Source: an uncultured Ruminococcus sp.
GTDB lineage: Bacteria > Bacillota_A > Clostridia > Oscillospirales > Ruminococcaceae
Assembly: GCA_902782875.1 (NCBI GenBank)
Contig: CACZPE010000057.1
Location: 1 to 6,336, forward strand
Reading direction: 5' to 3'
Length of the DNA stretch: 6,336 nt
This document shows positions 1 to 6,267 of the stretch, piece by piece; the stretch's first letter is position 1, and every line of letters starts with the position of its first letter. The notes under the pieces were generated by a model. The model was not told where the DNA came from and did no database searches. It saw only the letters and a list, made by a program, of their open reading frames with translations. The position numbers were made by a program, and so were the translations under genes.

Positions 1-20
1 GTATGAGACATATCAGACGT

Positions 21-140
21 ATTTGACATATTGTACTGTATGTCCCAAATCAGTAGGACATTCAAAAAGGGGCATACACAAAAGCCGTGATATAGCTTAT
101 CCCCGCTGTTTGTACAGACTGTACAGACAACGGGGACTTA
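21..140 (+). ncRNA. 3'-end element, copy 1: hairpin, conserved 20-mer, terminator
   Basis: This looks like the 3' end of a transcript entering from the left. Visible parts in order are a weak hairpin (ATTTGACAT 21-29 with ATGTCCCAAAT 40-50, two-base bulge), a competing hairpin ATGTCC 40-45 / GGACAT 56-61, the word ACATTC at 58-63, the 20-base motif CACAAAAGCCGTGATATAGC at 77-96, and then the hairpin at 101-135. The same order is found again after the operon at 5431-5550, with the 20-mer identical and the hairpin sequences different. Conserved linker with unconserved stems suggests a structured RNA tail or processing element. It is not a family I can name. Confidence 0.5.
77..96 (+). repeat. 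20-bp direct repeat, copy 1 (terminator-associated motif)
   Basis: CACAAAAGCCGTGATATAGC is identical to positions 5487-5506. In both places it sits 4 bases before the first base of a long hairpin, and an ACATTC word lies a short way upstream. A 20-base exact match in 6.3 kb is far beyond chance, so this is a genuine repeat. Its function is unknown. Confidence 0.9.
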
Positions 141-146
141 TTTGAC
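101..146 (+). terminator. Probable intrinsic terminator of the upstream unit
   Basis: CCCCGCTGTTTGTAC (101-115) pairs with GTACAGACAACGGGG (121-135) around a five-base loop. The stem is 15 positions with one C/A mismatch and one T-G wobble. The tail ACTTATTTGAC is only moderately T-rich, so termination could be partial. No + strand gene is needed between here and 661, so it most likely closes a gene lying left of the window. Confidence 0.65.
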
Positions 147-204
147 AAATATAACGCAATAGGAGAATTCATAAAAAACGAAACGCAAGGGGCTTCCCGA
201 CTTC

Positions 205-330
205 ATGTACTCATGAGGACATAAAAATCATCAATAGGAATTATCTATCATGTCCTCATTATGTACTCAAGGCAGTTTTCATAGGACACATATCTTGCCA
301 CAATGTACTCATGTCCTCAAAATGTCCTCA
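205..330. repeat. Cluster of seven 9-bp repeats ATGT(A/C)CTCA
   Basis: Direct copies of ATGTACTCA lie at 205-213, 261-269 and 303-311. Direct copies of ATGTCCTCA lie at 250-258, 311-319 and 322-330. One inverted copy, TGAGGACAT, lies at 214-222 and forms a head-to-head pair with the first copy. Two neighbouring pairs are 11 bp apart (250/261 and 311/322), about one helical turn. A degenerate inverted relative lies near 281-291 (ATAGGACACAT). No gene covers the stretch. It could be a set of protein-binding sites upstream of the 462-490 promoter, or the remnant of a mobile element end. The words are short and lack uniform spacers, so it is not a CRISPR array. Confidence 0.7.
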
Positions 331-461
331 TAGGGGTAAATTTTGATGATTAGGATTGTCAATTAAATACTTACCAATTAAAGCCAACATAAACACCGTA
401 AACTATCAACAATTGTCCCGATAATAATACAATAGGCTTCTTAAAGTTTTTAGAGGTACCC
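331..461. other. AT-rich intergenic spacer without recognised features
   Basis: No coding frame with a ribosome site and no strong hairpin is visible between the 9-bp repeat cluster and the promoter. The only structure seen is TGATGATT near 344-351, which is complementary to AATCATCA near 226-233 and so brackets most of the repeat cluster, and a doubled CAATTAAA word. It reads as ordinary upstream regulatory DNA. Confidence 0.5.
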
Positions 462-490
462 TTGATTATTTTATTATTATATGTTATAAT
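462..490 (+). promoter_or_regulatory. Vegetative (sigma-A) promoter of the ABC operon
   Basis: TTGATT at 462-467 is followed by a 17-bp spacer and a perfect TATAAT at 485-490. TG at 482-483 makes it an extended -10 (TGTTATAAT). The expected transcription start is about 497, giving a leader of roughly 164 bases before the ATG at 661. The elements are close to consensus, so strong basal activity is expected unless repressed. Confidence 0.85.
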
Positions 491-510
491 ATATAAACAT
501 AGCCTTATGT
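480..510 (+). promoter_or_regulatory. Candidate operator: inverted repeats over the -10 and start site
   Basis: TATGTT (480-485) and AACATA (496-501) form a 6-bp inverted repeat with a 10-bp gap that covers the -10 box. ACATA (497-501) forms a second inverted repeat with TATGT (506-510) across a 4-bp gap at the start site. Three alternating half-sites over the core promoter are a typical repressor placement. The AT-rich context makes chance matches easier, and no regulator gene is present in the window. Confidence 0.4.
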
Positions 511-660
511 CAAATATAATGCAGTAACAGTATTATACAGATCAGTTTCAGCCGACCGGGACAGGTCATGCTGCTGTATAACTGCCGTCAGACCGTACAC
601 AAACAGACATATTCTCTTTGTGCGGTACAGCCTTAGTATTCTGAGGATAAGGAGTATCAG
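497..660 (+). ncRNA. Structured 5' leader of the operon, possible RNA switch
   Basis: The leader folds into successive hairpins. The first is an extended arm: CAG 528-530/CTG 582-584, TTATACAG 533-540/CTGTATAA 574-581, CAGC 549-552/GCTG 570-573 and GACC 554-557/GGTC 564-567. The second pairs CCG-CACAAA (593-603, TA bulge) with TTTGTGCGG (617-625). The third pairs CCTTAG 631-636 with CTGAGG 641-646 around a TATT loop. CCTTA 631-635 can instead pair with TAAGG 648-652, which overlaps the ribosome site AAGGAG (649-654). I do not recognise a known riboswitch class. The pairings were read by eye, without an energy calculation. Confidence 0.5.
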
Positions 661-1866
661 ATGAAACTGAACAAATTATACACAAGAGCAATATGGAATC
701 TGACTAATGAGCTTCAGAATTTAAATCAGCCCGAGAGTGCACTTTTTGCTTTATCACAGATATTAAAGGATACCATTGGCTGTGATGCCGTTTTTGTATG
801 GCTCCTGAGAGAAGGGAGCGATGAGCTTTCCGTTATTTCAGGTGCCTATAACAGAGATCTGACCGGAACCACCACCGGTCATTATGAGGGAATGATCGGA
901 CACGTTATGGAAACATCGGAGACGATGATCTATAATGTCCTGCCGGAAGATGAAGAAAACCAGATCCCCATTTCTGATATAAAGTCCCAGATCGTTTCGG
1001 CATTCGGAATGCCCAACAGACCGCCATACGGAGCAGTACAGGTAATCAATAAAAATAACGGCAGTTTTAATGCCGAAGACAGTCAGCTTGTGGATTACCT
1101 TTCTGCTTTAGCCGCACTTGATTTTGATGACAAGGGATTTTTTACCGAGGCATATCCTAAAAAAGAACCGATCCTTGAGCTTAAAGGTATAGAAAAAGAA
1201 TTTGTGAACGGTACCGAAACGACAAAGGTGCTGCGTGGAGTTGATCTTGATATCTATCCCGGAGAATTTCTTGTTGTTCTGGGAGAGAGCGGCTGCGGCA
1301 AAACAACGCTCATGAATATTATAGGCGGAATGTCAAAGATGTCCCGCGGTAAGATTACATTGGAAGGAAAGGATTTTTCAAATCCTTCCGATAAGGAGAT
1401 AATGCTGTACCGGAGGAATTACATAGGTTTCATATTCCAGTCATATAACCTCATGCCTAATCTTACTGCGCTGGAGAATCTTGAATTCATCGCGGAAATA
1501 TGCCAGTCGCCTAATCCGCCCGAAAAGATGCTCGATCAGGTGGGTCTGTCAGCCAAGGCAAACAATTTTCCTTCTCAGATGAGCGGCGGTCAGCAGCAGA
1601 GGATCTCAATTGCAAGAGCTCTTACAAAGAATCCGCTGCTGATACTTGCCGATGAGCCGACCGCAGCACTTGATTATGAGACAAGCATTGAAGTCCTGAA
1701 GATCCTTGAAGATATAGTGAGACTTCAGAATAAAACGGTCGTGATGATAACACATAACCCCGAAATCGCTAAAATGGCAGATCGTGTGGTAAAGGTAAGA
1801 AACGGTTCTATATCCGGCACCCGCATAAACTGTCATCCTCTTCATGCAGAAGAACTGGTGTGGTGA
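661..1866 (+). CDS. GAF domain fused to MacB/LolD-type ABC ATPase
   Basis: Cytoplasmic ATPase subunit of an ABC system of the MacB/FtsE/LolD family, carrying an extra N-terminal sensor-like domain. Residues about 10-155 look like a GAF domain: a predicted mixed alpha/beta fold ending in the typical AVQVINKNNGSFNAEDSQLV strand-loop-helix. Residues about 172-388 are the ABC domain with Walker A GESGCGKTT (208-216), Q-loop Q260, signature MSGGQQQR (307-314), Walker B LLILADEPT (326-334), D-loop AALD and switch histidine H365, so it should be active. Family members are usually about 220-250 residues; here the extra 170 are the GAF part. The start ATG has AAGGAG at 649-654, spaced 6 bases. The stop lies 6 bases before the permease start, so the two are translated together. 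The substrate and GAF ligand are unknown. Confidence 0.92.
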   Translation: MKLNKLYTRAIWNLTNELQNLNQPESALFALSQILKDTIGCDAVFVWLLREGSDELSVISGAYNRDLTGTTTGHYEGMIGHVMETSETMIYNVLPEDEENQIPISDIKSQIVSAFGMPNRPPYGAVQVINKNNGSFNAEDSQLVDYLSALAALDFDDKGFFTEAYPKKEPILELKGIEKEFVNGTETTKVLRGVDLDIYPGEFLVVLGESGCGKTTLMNIIGGMSKMSRGKITLEGKDFSNPSDKEIMLYRRNYIGFIFQSYNLMPNLTALENLEFIAEICQSPNPPEKMLDQVGLSAKANNFPSQMSGGQQQRISIARALTKNPLLILADEPTAALDYETSIEVLKILEDIVRLQNKTVVMITHNPEIAKMADRVVKVRNGSISGTRINCHPLHAEELVW

Positions 1867-1872
1867 TTGAAG
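1862..1872 (+). promoter_or_regulatory. Ribosome binding site that sets the permease start
   Basis: GGTGAT at 1862-1867 matches the part of the 16S complement downstream of AGGAGG and stands 5 bases before the ATG at 1873. It overlaps the stop codon of the ATPase gene. This favours ATG 1873 over an in-frame TTG at 1867, which would lie on top of the site, and suggests translational coupling. Confidence 0.6.
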
Positions 1873-4548
1873 ATGAAAATATCTCAGTGGAAAAATTCCG
1901 TAAGAAATATAAGAAAAACGCTCGTCTCATGGATAGCGATCGTGACGGTCACTATGATAGGAGCCGGAGTTTACAGCGGAGTTTCATTCTATGCAGATTC
2001 TCTGGCGGAAAAGGGAGAGAAATTCCTTTCGCAGACAGAATTTGAGGATCTGTCTGTCGTTGCGCCGAACGGGCTTGATGATGAAGACATCTCCGCGCTT
2101 AAGGAAATGAATATCGTGACAGATGCCGAGGGGGGATATTATATTCCCGATGCAAGGCTGCATTACAGCGGCGGGACGGAGACTGTGACTTTATACACTC
2201 TGTCGGAGAAGATATCAAAGCCTGTCCTTGTCAGCGGAACACTTCCGTCAGCCGGAAATGAATGTGCCCTTACAGCATCGGCTATGGAAAAATACGGGCT
2301 GAACCCCGGTGATACCGTTAAGATAAATATACCGGACGAAAATATCCCCGAGGGCTTTCTGAGATATGAAGACCTCACTGTTACCGGAGCTATAGAACAC
2401 GCTGAAGGTATCTGCACAGAGTACAGCAGAATGGTTTTTGTTCCTGTCACCGCGTTTGACGGAGAGAAGATCAATGACAATTATACTTATGTGCGGATCA
2501 TTGCCGATACCCCGATCTCGCAGAAAAGGCTGTCTGATGAGTATGGAAATACTGTAGATCTCAGAAAAAAAGATGTTGATGATAAGCTTTCGGAGATCGG
2601 TAAGAATCATGACTCAAAAATCAGAGAAGATGCTGCAGATAAGATATCCGATGCCGAGAAGAAGGCGGCGGATTCGGAAGATAAACTGAACAGCGCGAGA
2701 AAAGAGCTTGAGGAAAAAGAAAAAGAGCTTACTGAGAAAGAAGCGCTGATCGGGCAGTATGGTGAGTCTGCCGTTTCTGCTGAAGAACTGACCGCGATAC
2801 AGAATGCCCGCAAAGAGATCAATGAGAAAAAGGCTGAACTTTCTGATAATGAAAAGAAGCTCGAAGAATCAAAAGAACAGATAGCCGAAAAGAAAAAAGA
2901 ACTTGAAGGGTTAAAGGATTCGCATTACGGAACAATGACTCAGAATTCAAAGGAGGGTTTTCTTACATATAAAACAGATGTGAAGATAATCCATGACCTT
3001 TCGATGATATTTGTCATATTGTTTTTGATAATCGGAGCGATCGTAATTGCATCTACTGTTACAATACTTATAAATCAGAAGAAAAAGCAGCTCGGTATGA
3101 TGAAGGCTAACGGCTTCGATAAAAAGGAACTGGCTTTTGAGTTTATCATATATACAAATACCGCCGTTATGATCGGACTTATCCTTGCAGTCGGACTTGC
3201 GTGGCTGCTGCAGTTTATAATCAGCTCAGTCATCGGGGGATTATTCTGTGTAAGGACAGACAGCTTTTCATTCTTTATCGGAAATTATATAGTTCTGGCT
3301 CTTTGTATGCTGCTGGTGGGAAATATCTCTGCTGTAATAGTGCTTGCGAGGAAGGTATTTGCCACAGAAGCTGTTGATCTGATGAGCGGGAACACGGATA
3401 GCAGCCGCCATTCGGGTACGCGGAAGAAGAGACACGTTTTTCCGCTTTATTCAAGACTGATCGCGCGCAATATGGTAAGTGAGCTTCCGAGGATCGTCAC
3501 ATCGGTCGCCGTTATCGGAGGCTGCTGTCTTATCATGGGGCTTGGCGTGACACTTAAAGACTCCCTTGATAATGTAATGAAATATATGGCACGGGATATC
3601 ATGCATTATGATCTGGAAGTATCTGTATATTCACGCTCGGATGATCCGGAAAAGGTCAGGGCGTTTTTATCTGATAAAGGGGCAGAATACAAAGAGATAC
3701 GCAAGACAAACACTATCTATAAGTACGGAGATACAGAAGAACACGTTACGGTGATAAGCTGCGGAAGTGAGCTTTATGGAGACTACATAATGCTTGGCAG
3801 CAGGAGCGGGAATGAGACTTACTCTCCCGCAGGCTCTGATCTGATCGCCGATTTTAAGACAGCTGAAAAGCTTGGGTTATCCAAAGGCAATGAGCTGATA
3901 TTGCGAAATGCCGGTTTTGAGGAGCATACATTTGTTATTTCGGGAATATGCATGAATTATTATCCGAGAGTGATGTATCTGGGAGAAGAAGCTTATGACG
4001 AGCTGTTCGGCAGCAGCACTTATGATACCATGGTCGTCAGGGCAGGCGGCATTGATGCTGAGACGCTCGGAAACGAGCTTTCTGAGAAATTTCCGGATAT
4101 TGATATAACATATACGGACAGACTTCCGCAGGCATTTACTCCGATGTCTGATATGTTCCATGTTGTTGTATATATCCTGATTGTGCTTTCTGTGATAATG
4201 TCTGTTTTTGTTCTGCTGAATCTGGTAAACATTTTTGTCAGACGAAAAAAGAATGAGATTATCATTATGGCAGTAAACGGATTCGATCACAAAGAACAGA
4301 TCGGGTATCTGCTCAGGGAGACGATCATTACTACGGTATGCGGACTCATTGCAGGCGTACTTGCCGGCTGGGCGATGACTGAGCCGGTCGTGCGTACTGT
4401 AGAAGTGGGAGAAATGCTGTTTGTGCGGGATTTTAATGTCATTGCATGGATCATTGCGGCAGGTATGGAAGCCGTTTTTGCGATAGCGATCAACTTTTTT
4501 GCATTCAGGTATGTGCGAAGCTTTGATATAACCGAACTGACACGGTAA
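1873..4548 (+). CDS. FtsX/MacB-type ABC permease with long coiled coil
   Basis: Membrane subunit of the ABC system, 891 residues from ATG 1873. It is a duplicated FtsX-type permease. The first module has one helix (about 17-40), a large outer domain, and three helices (about 376-400, 426-454, 471-493). The second has a helix (about 539-560), an outer domain (about 561-761) and three helices (762-788, 815-836, 854-878). Each outer domain carries a LGL/YGL-x-x-G-(D/N) turn typical of these proteins (near residues 141-147 and 667-673). Each module has the cytoplasmic coupling pattern K-x-x-x-(L/I)-x-x-M-x-x-N-G-F-D (KKQLGMMKANGFD and KKNEIIIMAVNGFD). Residues about 234-349 are a Glu/Lys-rich coiled coil inserted before the second helix. 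The ATPase partner is directly upstream. Likely job: mechanical work on an outer-face substrate or partner (efflux, lipid or peptide extraction, or hydrolase control); the substrate is not evident. Confidence 0.92.
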   Translation: MKISQWKNSVRNIRKTLVSWIAIVTVTMIGAGVYSGVSFYADSLAEKGEKFLSQTEFEDLSVVAPNGLDDEDISALKEMNIVTDAEGGYYIPDARLHYSGGTETVTLYTLSEKISKPVLVSGTLPSAGNECALTASAMEKYGLNPGDTVKINIPDENIPEGFLRYEDLTVTGAIEHAEGICTEYSRMVFVPVTAFDGEKINDNYTYVRIIADTPISQKRLSDEYGNTVDLRKKDVDDKLSEIGKNHDSKIREDAADKISDAEKKAADSEDKLNSARKELEEKEKELTEKEALIGQYGESAVSAEELTAIQNARKEINEKKAELSDNEKKLEESKEQIAEKKKELEGLKDSHYGTMTQNSKEGFLTYKTDVKIIHDLSMIFVILFLIIGAIVIASTVTILINQKKKQLGMMKANGFDKKELAFEFIIYTNTAVMIGLILAVGLAWLLQFIISSVIGGLFCVRTDSFSFFIGNYIVLALCMLLVGNISAVIVLARKVFATEAVDLMSGNTDSSRHSGTRKKRHVFPLYSRLIARNMVSELPRIVTSVAVIGGCCLIMGLGVTLKDSLDNVMKYMARDIMHYDLEVSVYSRSDDPEKVRAFLSDKGAEYKEIRKTNTIYKYGDTEEHVTVISCGSELYGDYIMLGSRSGNETYSPAGSDLIADFKTAEKLGLSKGNELILRNAGFEEHTFVISGICMNYYPRVMYLGEEAYDELFGSSTYDTMVVRAGGIDAETLGNELSEKFPDIDITYTDRLPQAFTPMSDMFHVVVYILIVLSVIMSVFVLLNLVNIFVRRKKNEIIIMAVNGFDHKEQIGYLLRETIITTVCGLIAGVLAGWAMTEPVVRTVEVGEMLFVRDFNVIAWIIAAGMEAVFAIAINFFAFRYVRSFDITELTR

Positions 4549-4574
4549 GGCTTCGTCCGGGAACAGTAAGCAGG

Positions 4575-4588
4575 TTTATGGTCATAAA
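4575..4588 (+). repeat. Short perfect inverted repeat in the intergenic gap
   Basis: TTTATG-GT-CATAAA lies between the permease and the third gene. Its core TTATGGTCATAA recurs exactly at the tip of the terminator hairpin at 5523-5534. As RNA it is a small hairpin without a T-run, so it is not a terminator. It may be a processing or binding site, or a coincidence. Confidence 0.4.
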
Positions 4589-4629
4589 GTATGCGATGCA
4601 TTATTTATGAAAAAAATACAGGTATCTTT

Positions 4630-5418
4630 ATGAAAAACAATAACAAAAAAATTTCAGCGGTAAGTACGCTTCATTTTATCAGACTGGCATATCGCTCAGT
4701 GCTTTTCGTCTCTCTGATAGTGGGGTACATCATGTACTGTATAGACGGCAAAGTCAGATTTCCGTCAGAACCATATACCAATATTCCGATAGTTATGGTA
4801 GTGTGGGTCATTTTTATGTTTGAGATGCTGATAAGATTTTTTCCGTCAAGACTTGAAAGTCACGGCTCGCAGAAACAGTTCAAACGTAATTATATCAAGA
4901 CTGGGAATACAGATATAAATATACATGACAATAATTCAACGGTGCTTGTTCTGCTTATCTGGATAGTGTTCAATATGATATTCGGGACGCTCAGAATGGC
5001 AGGGATATTTGACGACTGGATAATGATACTTTTATGTGTCTTCTATTCTTTGTGCGACATGATATGTATTCTGTTCTTCTGTCCGTTTCAAACTTTGTTC
5101 ATGAAAAACAAGTGCTGCAGCGCTTGCAGAATATATAACTGGGACTATGCAATGATGTTTACGCCGCTCTTTTTTGTGGACAGCCTGTTTCTTAAATGCC
5201 TGCTGCTTGTCTCTCTGGCACTTTTCCTCAGATGGGAGATCACATTTTACAGACACCCCGAATATTTTTCGGAGAATACAAACGGGTATCTCAAATGCGT
5301 AAATTGCAAAGAAAAACTGTGTGTTCATAAAAAACAGCTCCGCAGCTTCTGGAAAGCAAGGGACAGATATATAAAGGAAACACTGCGCAGGCTGAGTTCA
5401 AATGACAGCCATGAATAG
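4630..5418 (+). CDS. Multi-pass membrane protein with paired cysteine motifs, unknown function
   Basis: Predicted 262-residue integral membrane protein; I do not recognise a named family. About five hydrophobic segments are visible (near 20-37, 52-71, 104-124, 130-153, 175-203). Between the fourth and fifth lies KCCSACRIYNWD (161-172), with C162, C163 and C166. After the last lies CVNCKEKLCVH (223-233), with C223, C226, C231 and H233. The two clusters could jointly bind zinc or an iron-sulfur centre if they lie on the same face; this is inference. The tail is basic and hydrophilic. ATG 4630 is preferred because AGGT stands 7 bases upstream; an in-frame ATG at 4591 has no clear ribosome site and would add 13 residues. 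It lies 81 bases after the permease with no terminator between, so it is probably the third gene of the operon and may be an accessory subunit. Confidence 0.8.
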   Translation: MKNNNKKISAVSTLHFIRLAYRSVLFVSLIVGYIMYCIDGKVRFPSEPYTNIPIVMVVWVIFMFEMLIRFFPSRLESHGSQKQFKRNYIKTGNTDINIHDNNSTVLVLLIWIVFNMIFGTLRMAGIFDDWIMILLCVFYSLCDMICILFFCPFQTLFMKNKCCSACRIYNWDYAMMFTPLFFVDSLFLKCLLLVSLALFLRWEITFYRHPEYFSENTNGYLKCVNCKEKLCVHKKQLRSFWKARDRYIKETLRRLSSNDSHE

Positions 5419-5486
5419 CGATCAGGCGTGTTCGGCGGACTATCTGCGGCAGCACACATGTGTGTGTCCACCGAAATGGAACATTC

Positions 5487-5506
5487 CACAAAAGCCGTGA
5501 TATAGC
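5487..5506 (+). repeat. 20-bp direct repeat, copy 2 (terminator-associated motif)
   Basis: CACAAAAGCCGTGATATAGC, identical to 77-96. It lies 4 bases before the first base of the hairpin at 5511. The two copies bracket the whole promoter-leader-operon unit in the same orientation, 5.4 kb apart. Confidence 0.9.
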
Positions 5507-5510
5507 AAAC

Positions 5511-5550
5511 CGCCGCCGTTCTTATGGTCATAAGAACGGCGGTGTTTATT
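5511..5550 (+). terminator. Strong intrinsic terminator of the ABC operon
   Basis: CGCCGCCGTTCTTATG (5511-5526) pairs with CATAAGAACGGCGGTG (5529-5544), 16 positions with a single G-T wobble, followed by TTTATTATA. The two central bases cannot form a loop alone, so the top few pairs will open. It closes the three-gene operon about 95 bases after its last stop codon. Confidence 0.85.
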
Positions 5551-5634: not shown

Positions 5635-5676
5635 GAAAAAATCCCATAAGCAAATTCTATGATTTACTTACGGGAT
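5635..5676 (-). terminator. Intrinsic terminator of the minus-strand gene
   Basis: Read on the minus strand, positions 5676-5662 pair with 5655-5641 over 15 positions including two G-T wobbles, with a six-base loop, followed at once by a T-run (AAAAAA on the + strand, 5636-5641). It starts 12 bases after the stop codon at 5688. The wobbles pair only on the minus strand, which fixes the direction. Confidence 0.85.
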
Positions 5677-5687
5677 AATAATATAAT

Positions 5688-6267
5688 TCATTCTATTGTT
5701 TCGGTAGTCTTTCTTCCGATATAGATATATTCCATTAAGGCATTAAACTCTTTAACATCATCAGAATCACCCTCAATATGATTATCAACGAGATAAAATC
5801 TTTTGGCTTCTTCAAAATCTCTATATTTTATGCCTATACTTTCAAATGTATTTCCAACTGATTCAATAAGATTATATAGATAATCATATATACTACCGCT
5901 CATTTCTTTAAGGTATTGAGCATCCTGTGTGCGAGGGACATCATTTAGATCATAGTTTATTGGATTTCCCTTATACCAAGCAAATGTCTGAATACGTTCT
6001 GCTGAAAATGCAGAATCATTTTCTCCAGAAAGGATATGGTCAAGTGCTTTCTGGCAGGACTCAACTTTTATAAACGGAGATGTTGTATGAGCCAAGACAT
6101 ATACATCTGCATCTACCGTATTTATAAACGCTCTGTATATATCGAATCCCTTTACTAAATCTCCATCCAACCACACAGGTCTTTGTAAAAACCTTGTCTC
6201 TTTGGGAATGTATTGTTTCACAGTTGGATCGGAACAGTATACATATACCTCATGGTCGCCAGTATCT
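5688..6267 (-). pseudogene. Broken cytidylyltransferase (CMP-sialic-acid-synthetase-like) remnant with foreign C-terminus
   Basis: The frame is open from 6320 down to the TGA at 5688-5690. From about 6266 it reads like the middle of an acylneuraminate-cytidylyltransferase-type enzyme, which makes CMP-activated sugars for surface glycans: EVYVYCSDPTV, FLQRPVWLD, ADVYVLAHTTSPFIK, DSAFSAERIQTF, then PRTQD. Intact enzymes are about 220-240 residues and begin with a nucleotide-binding loop of the type ARGGSKxxxxKN, which is absent; a stop (TAA, 6321-6323) lies just upstream. After PRTQD (to about 5922) the usual VETSGxYIF continuation is missing and about 77 unrelated residues follow. GTG 6219-6221 is the first possible start, but it falls inside the conserved part, so a functional start there is unlikely. 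Base use is clearly AT-richer than the operon. Probably inactive; a short expressed fragment cannot be excluded. Confidence 0.7.

Follow-up and report, generated by a model that had tools for sequence, protein, structure and literature searches.

What kind of element is a 20-nt sequence that stands, letter for letter the same, on both sides of an exporter operon in a contig from an uncultured Ruminococcus? The window, by which we mean the whole 6,336-nt stretch of DNA analysed, carries this exact 20-mer at 77-96 (copy 1) and at 5487-5506 (copy 2), both on the forward strand. The recurrence, noted in a preliminary description of the sequence, was confirmed and lies above chance: none of 200 shuffles gave any match, even with up to three mismatches allowed. 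A repeat finder reported the 20-mer as part of a 34-nt pair with 85% identity. Between the two copies lies a three-gene ABC exporter operon (661-5418, forward strand), which is context and outside the element. It encodes a GAF-ABC ATPase (661-1866), an FtsX/MacB permease (1867-4548) and a 275-aa membrane protein (4591-5418) with 3738 relatives in the database searched (E up to 0.001). Copy 2 starts 68 nt past the stop of the membrane protein gene, and a separate terminator-like hairpin at 5641-5676 belongs to the minus-strand frame at 5688-6221.

Both 20-mers are followed by a hairpin, as first described, which starts 3 nt past the 20-mer in copy 1 and 1 nt past it in copy 2. Copy 1 comprises a left part (2-76) with GACATAT-type 9-nt direct repeats seen by eye, TGTCC..GGACA words and a AAAAAGGGGCATA linker, then the 20-mer core, and a hairpin at 100-136 that forms 16 pairs with a mismatch allowed and ends in the tail CTTATTTG. 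The hairpin of copy 2 (5508-5547) forms 17 pairs with a mismatch allowed and has a T-rich tail, resembling an intrinsic terminator; all of these parts are on the forward strand. Upstream of the core, the words TGTCC, AAAT, GGA and ACATTC do occur in the same order in both copies, as had been reported, but out of register. In copy 1 the ACATTC word stops 13 nt short of the 20-mer, and in copy 2 it runs directly up to it; an alignment pairs GGGGCAT-AC with GGAACATTCC instead of matching the shared words. The further upstream hairpin proposed for each copy found no support, with upstream folding z of -1.4 in copy 1, -0.5 in copy 2 and +0.3 to -2.1 over the 11 family copies that have an upstream region. 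Separately, seven TGTMCTCA words lie within 125 bases at 206-330, between copy 1 and the operon, where 0.39 are expected in the whole window and none of 200 shuffles reach seven. Among 190 other loci, some of them overlapping, none had even three such words within 150 bases; the words could be protein-binding sites or a transposon end.

Searches in relatives, which the preliminary description had proposed, revealed 12 copies, spread over six genomes if the window is taken as a genome, rather than two copies with none in relatives. Two are in the window, four in the Ruminococcus MAG G001, three in G314 (a to c) and one each in G012, G009 and G007. Two further partial copies lie in contig C122 of G001, where a decayed copy (1797-1846) keeps its left part and has lost the core. 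The exact 20-mer occurs at two loci in an 84,980-species collection, of which G001 was the one informative match; the other, from a Planctomycetota genome, was dropped as a member because only the 20-mer was in common by eye. We then used R1, a sequence-only model from seven copies, including G012 and both window copies, whose scores of 51.9 bits (copy 1) and 45.7 bits (copy 2) are thus scores of its own training sequences. R1 gave the G009 member in 20 genomes of G001's genus and the three G314 members in 396 family genomes, under strict filters that may miss members. The G012 member was found through a DNA search with window 1-160, and the G007 member by a DNA search (E 6e-9), R1 giving it only E 0.056. 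The lowest R1 scores are those of G007, G009, G314c and the G001 copy C65, which is cut by a contig end, and membership of weak matches was decided by eye.

Many other matches were discarded. R1 at E up to 1 gave 50 places in the 20 genus genomes; six were accepted by model score and G007 by its DNA match, and some of the weaker places were read. At E up to 0.003 in the 396 family genomes it gave 18 places in 13 genomes, eight of them members; the other ten, each in a different genome and with E 2.4e-4 to 0.003, were dropped, none having by eye a long hairpin directly after the core. The order-level search of 394 genomes found members in one genome, G314, whose copies made up three of seven places, and by eye the other four likewise had no long hairpin directly after the core. 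Among four genomes of G314's genus, the one weak match besides G314 (G212, E 0.0075) was dropped by eye. Window 1-160 matched 22 of 297 family genomes at E up to 0.05; of the 20 beyond G001 and G012, nine were read and dropped by eye and 11 lay outside the reading. With up to two mismatches, six of the 20 genus genomes matched, with members in G001 and G009 and five other places dropped by eye. A 14-mer occurred at 36 places in 30 of the 396 family genomes (reversed control, 9), seven of them members; 27 of the 29 non-member places were read and by eye looked coding or promoter-like, the second places in G125:C22 and G357:C189 falling outside this reading. As an observation in its own right, AAAGCCGTGATATA outnumbers its reversed control even outside the family (29 versus 9 places in the family genomes), and many of its places appear promoter-like by eye, ending in TATAAT.

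Databases of known elements gave no counterpart. Rfam covariance models found no family at gathering score in the window, bearing out the earlier statement that no named family was known for the motif; at E up to 10 they gave four matches, all to eukaryotic snoRNA or miRNA families and far under their gathering scores. Plasmids and phages had no match to window 1-160, and the element at the G001 copy C92 gave only chance-like matches of 27-31 bases to one plasmid and three phage records. In IMG/VR, an 18-mer hit two contigs carrying one identical sequence, with only the 18-mer common to the family by eye, two further patterns gave no matches, and another hit a single contig within long open frames. 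A literature search found no such repeat in Ruminococcus. Two G001 contigs end within an element and a third ends 169 bases from one, as is usual for repeats in assemblies.

Aligned without gaps, the 12 copies share a core with the consensus AAAAGCCGTGATATA-n-C, in which 16 of 17 columns are identical in 11-12 of the 12 copies, compared with mostly 4-9 in flanking columns; this contrast is overstated, because most copies were found through the core. We consider it extremely improbable that the conservation reflects chance or coding. Short reading frames do cross the core on both strands, but the frame shifts between copies where the length of an A-run differs, the residues around the core vary, and both the shuffles and the existence of a 12-copy family contradict this idea. 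It is also very improbable that the core acts as an extended -10 promoter (TG-A-TATAAC) from which transcription would run into the hairpin. In relatives, many of the 14-mer matches outside the family do resemble promoters by eye (TGATATAAT), but the extended -10 hexamer consensus requires T at its last base, where 11 of the 12 copies have C and one has A. Moreover, no -35 element was seen by eye in copy 1, and transcription would have to start in an arm of the hairpin.

We next describe the hairpin. Nine of the 12 copies have a stem of 14-21 pairs that begins 0-3 nt past the core, with G-T pairs and up to two mismatches allowed and distances counted from the 19-nt stretch ACAAAAGCCGTGATATARC. 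These nine long stems have z of -4.3 to -9.3, each outscoring all 100 of its own shuffles. The remaining hairpins are weak or displaced: 9 pairs in G314c (z -1.6), 8 pairs 11 nt away in G007 (z -1.0) and 12 pairs 21 nt away in G009 (z -3.2). Five copies (copy 1, the G001 copies C65 and C180, G314a and G007) form a type-A hairpin group with a GTACAGACTGTAC-like tip, and three, C92 among them, form a type-B group; the hairpins of copy 2, G012, G009 and G314c could not be related to others. The two hairpins in the window had been called unrelated, and they do differ from each other, but that of copy 1 has homologues in four other copies, and there the hairpin is therefore part of the repeat.

Within both groups the stem sequence drifts while pairing is kept, supporting the preliminary description's view of a conserved linker with variable stems. 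In type A, both sides have changed in 4 of 18 pairs, with 88.8% of cells paired; in type B the figures are 4 of 19 and 96.5%. The count of such pairs was reached by 43 of 500 shuffles for type A and 11 of 500 for type B, and the covariation score by 1 and 11 of 500, respectively; these shuffle counts, which rest on five and three related sequences, are not probabilities. Controls with slid partners gave 0-2 both-side pairs for type A and 0-1 for type B.

Do these hairpins look like terminators? Both window hairpins had been described as such. Under a simple rule applied strictly, this holds for copy 2, but copy 1 passes only with one stem mismatch. Across the family, 5 of 12 copies (G314b, C122, C180, G012 and copy 2) pass strictly on the forward strand with their full stem and a T-rich tail, and 7 do so with one mismatch, adding copy 1 and C92. 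G314a passes via a sub-stem and G009 via its weaker hairpin, and C65 has a full stem without a T-rich tail and passes only via another hairpin further downstream; neither G314c nor G007 passes at all. On the opposite strand, C92, G314a and C122 pass strictly and G314b, G012 and copy 2 with one mismatch, so that termination could run in either direction. As judged from these patterns, the hairpin may even act on transcription from both sides, as would suit copies that lie between convergent genes, C122 for example.

The copies adjoin different genes and are mostly intergenic. C92 and G314b have about 205 nt in common and lie beside different genes. For the oxidoreductase end next to C92, orthologues with other 3' flanks are present in G012 and G009, and the same holds for the permease next to C122 (in G011, G005, G004 and G012) and the convergent gene beside it (in G007 and G011), the last two having by eye no core. 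In all, core and hairpin were absent by eye from the orthologous gene ends read for the genes flanking C92 and C122. One G314 copy abuts, at its left end, a truncated SNF2-type helicase frame without its N-terminal part. These results do not sustain the earlier suggestion of a 3'-UTR element in the sense of one conserved at particular genes: the orthologous ends read lack it, members were found in only 4 of the 20 genomes of G001's genus, and one copy sits at the truncated helicase. In the cases that can be read, the element thus appears sporadic and not tied to particular genes.

A related reading, in line with the preliminary description, is that the element is a 3'-UTR regulatory or processing signal in which a protein or small RNA binds the core RNA just before the terminator. 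We regard this as possible but doubtful. The core is retained where both flanks diverge, in copy 2, G012 and G009, and a same-strand gene end is close in 5 of 12 copies, lying just upstream in copy 2, C122, C92 and G012, while C180 overlaps the last ogt codons. However, in the other seven a close same-strand gene end was unconfirmed, copy 1 and C65 not being judgeable where the sequence ends. The G009 gene ends about 370 nt off, the G007 frame is short and putative, and the gene ends next to G314a and G314b face the element from the opposite side. Furthermore, the neighbouring genes scanned share no common function, and the orthologous gene ends read are without the element.

Several features of the surrounding loci were recorded independently. 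In locus L106 the SNF2-type helicase frame, with a DUF6908 end (2647-3921), is missing its N-terminal part at its junction with the element. The right part of the long copies in L106 (514-720) and L072 (1641-1845), read backwards, gives a similar peptide end, xVNGxFGFGxxx-stop, with many third-position changes between copies by eye. An Rce1-like (CAAX-protease-like) gene adjoins the element in G012 (L076 6629-7459) and G009 (L077 5908-6693) in opposite orientations. The end of an AraC-type regulator is 98% identical between G001 and G314 (L106 1-509, L072 4279-4787), genomes in different genus sets, which reflects either recent exchange or cross-contamination of the MAGs.

The left part of copy 1 raises another question, that of recombination. 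Window 2-94 is 91% identical to G314:C437 and matches G001:C92 at 90 of 93 positions, followed by 15 of 56, the break coinciding with the end of the core. Past the core, copy 1 continues as type A (80-89% identity to C180, G314a and C65), while C92 is type B. In this single case, as the alignments read, copy 1 is a mosaic whose similarity switches at the core end. The core might accordingly be a recombination or attachment-type site: exchange there would replace the downstream part, and two copies together would delimit a movable gene module. Two gene modules do have copies in direct orientation on either side, one in the window (5.4 kb) and one in G314:C437 (2.0 kb, with PadR and DUF1048). 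In G001:C122 a full copy, the decayed copy and a left half, all in the same orientation, share a stretch of about 3 kb. Nevertheless, we consider this unlikely. No transposase or recombinase was found among the subset of neighbours scanned (21 proteins outside the window and four inside), an empty site was not found, and one mosaic could be explained by ordinary recombination or hairpin replacement. The more specific idea, that the core joins movable cassettes made of a terminator hairpin and the genes behind it, as an attC-like but unrelated system in Ruminococcus-like gut bacteria, is a long shot.

Together, the simplest account is a new low-copy, terminator-bearing interspersed repeat, and we think it probable that the copies form a new lineage-restricted family of low-copy terminator-like interspersed repeats, so far from a few related Ruminococcus-like lineages. 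On this account, the element would spread as a unit between intergenic sites, a landed element would act as an intrinsic transcription terminator, and selection for termination would keep the stem paired. In its weakest step, something would recognise the core and so keep it fixed, acting on the RNA immediately ahead of the terminator or on the DNA while the element spreads; an RNA-binding factor or recombination at the core may be what preserves it. We infer the spread from position only, because no terminal inverted repeat above shuffles, no transposase or recombinase among the neighbours scanned and no clean empty site at the orthologous gene ends read was found. If the interspersed-repeat account is right, this is a family whose terminator stems can vary freely but whose roughly 17 nt ahead of them cannot, which points to a reader of the core. 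It would also describe one route by which new terminators reach gene ends, and such repeats can break MAG assemblies.

How does the family compare with known systems? It resembles ordinary intrinsic (Rho-independent) terminators in the stem and T-rich tail of 7 of 12 copies with one mismatch, and differs in its conserved upstream core and in its stems, which in nine of the 12 copies have 14-21 pairs; we know of no conserved upstream core of this kind in ordinary terminators. In integron attC sites, complementary R boxes flank the hairpin on both sides; to the right of the hairpin in the 12 copies, judged by eye only, no shared motif was seen. Bacterial MITEs, as characterized in PMC10969869, are likewise short, non-coding, structured and dispersed, but no terminal inverted repeats were detected in the family, and no parental transposase was found among the proteins scanned. 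The ends of C92 score 12 compared with a shuffled mean of 12.2, and those of G314b 14 compared with a mean of 12.0 and a largest value of 20. This test, on the one defining feature tested, rules against MITE identity; as for target site duplication, the boundaries of the element are only loosely defined and the orthologous gene ends read offered no empty site. Closest in kind is the pneumococcal SPRITE, which PMC3049150 describes as a dispersed small repeat, enriched near gene 3' ends, with an 18-bp stem and a long U-rich tract, longer than typical terminators. The present family is also a dispersed small repeat; nine of its 12 copies have stems of 14-21 pairs, and its tails are only moderately T-rich (7 of 12 with one mismatch). 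Compared with SPRITE as described there, it is set apart by its fixed core before the hairpin and by the variable sequence of its stem.
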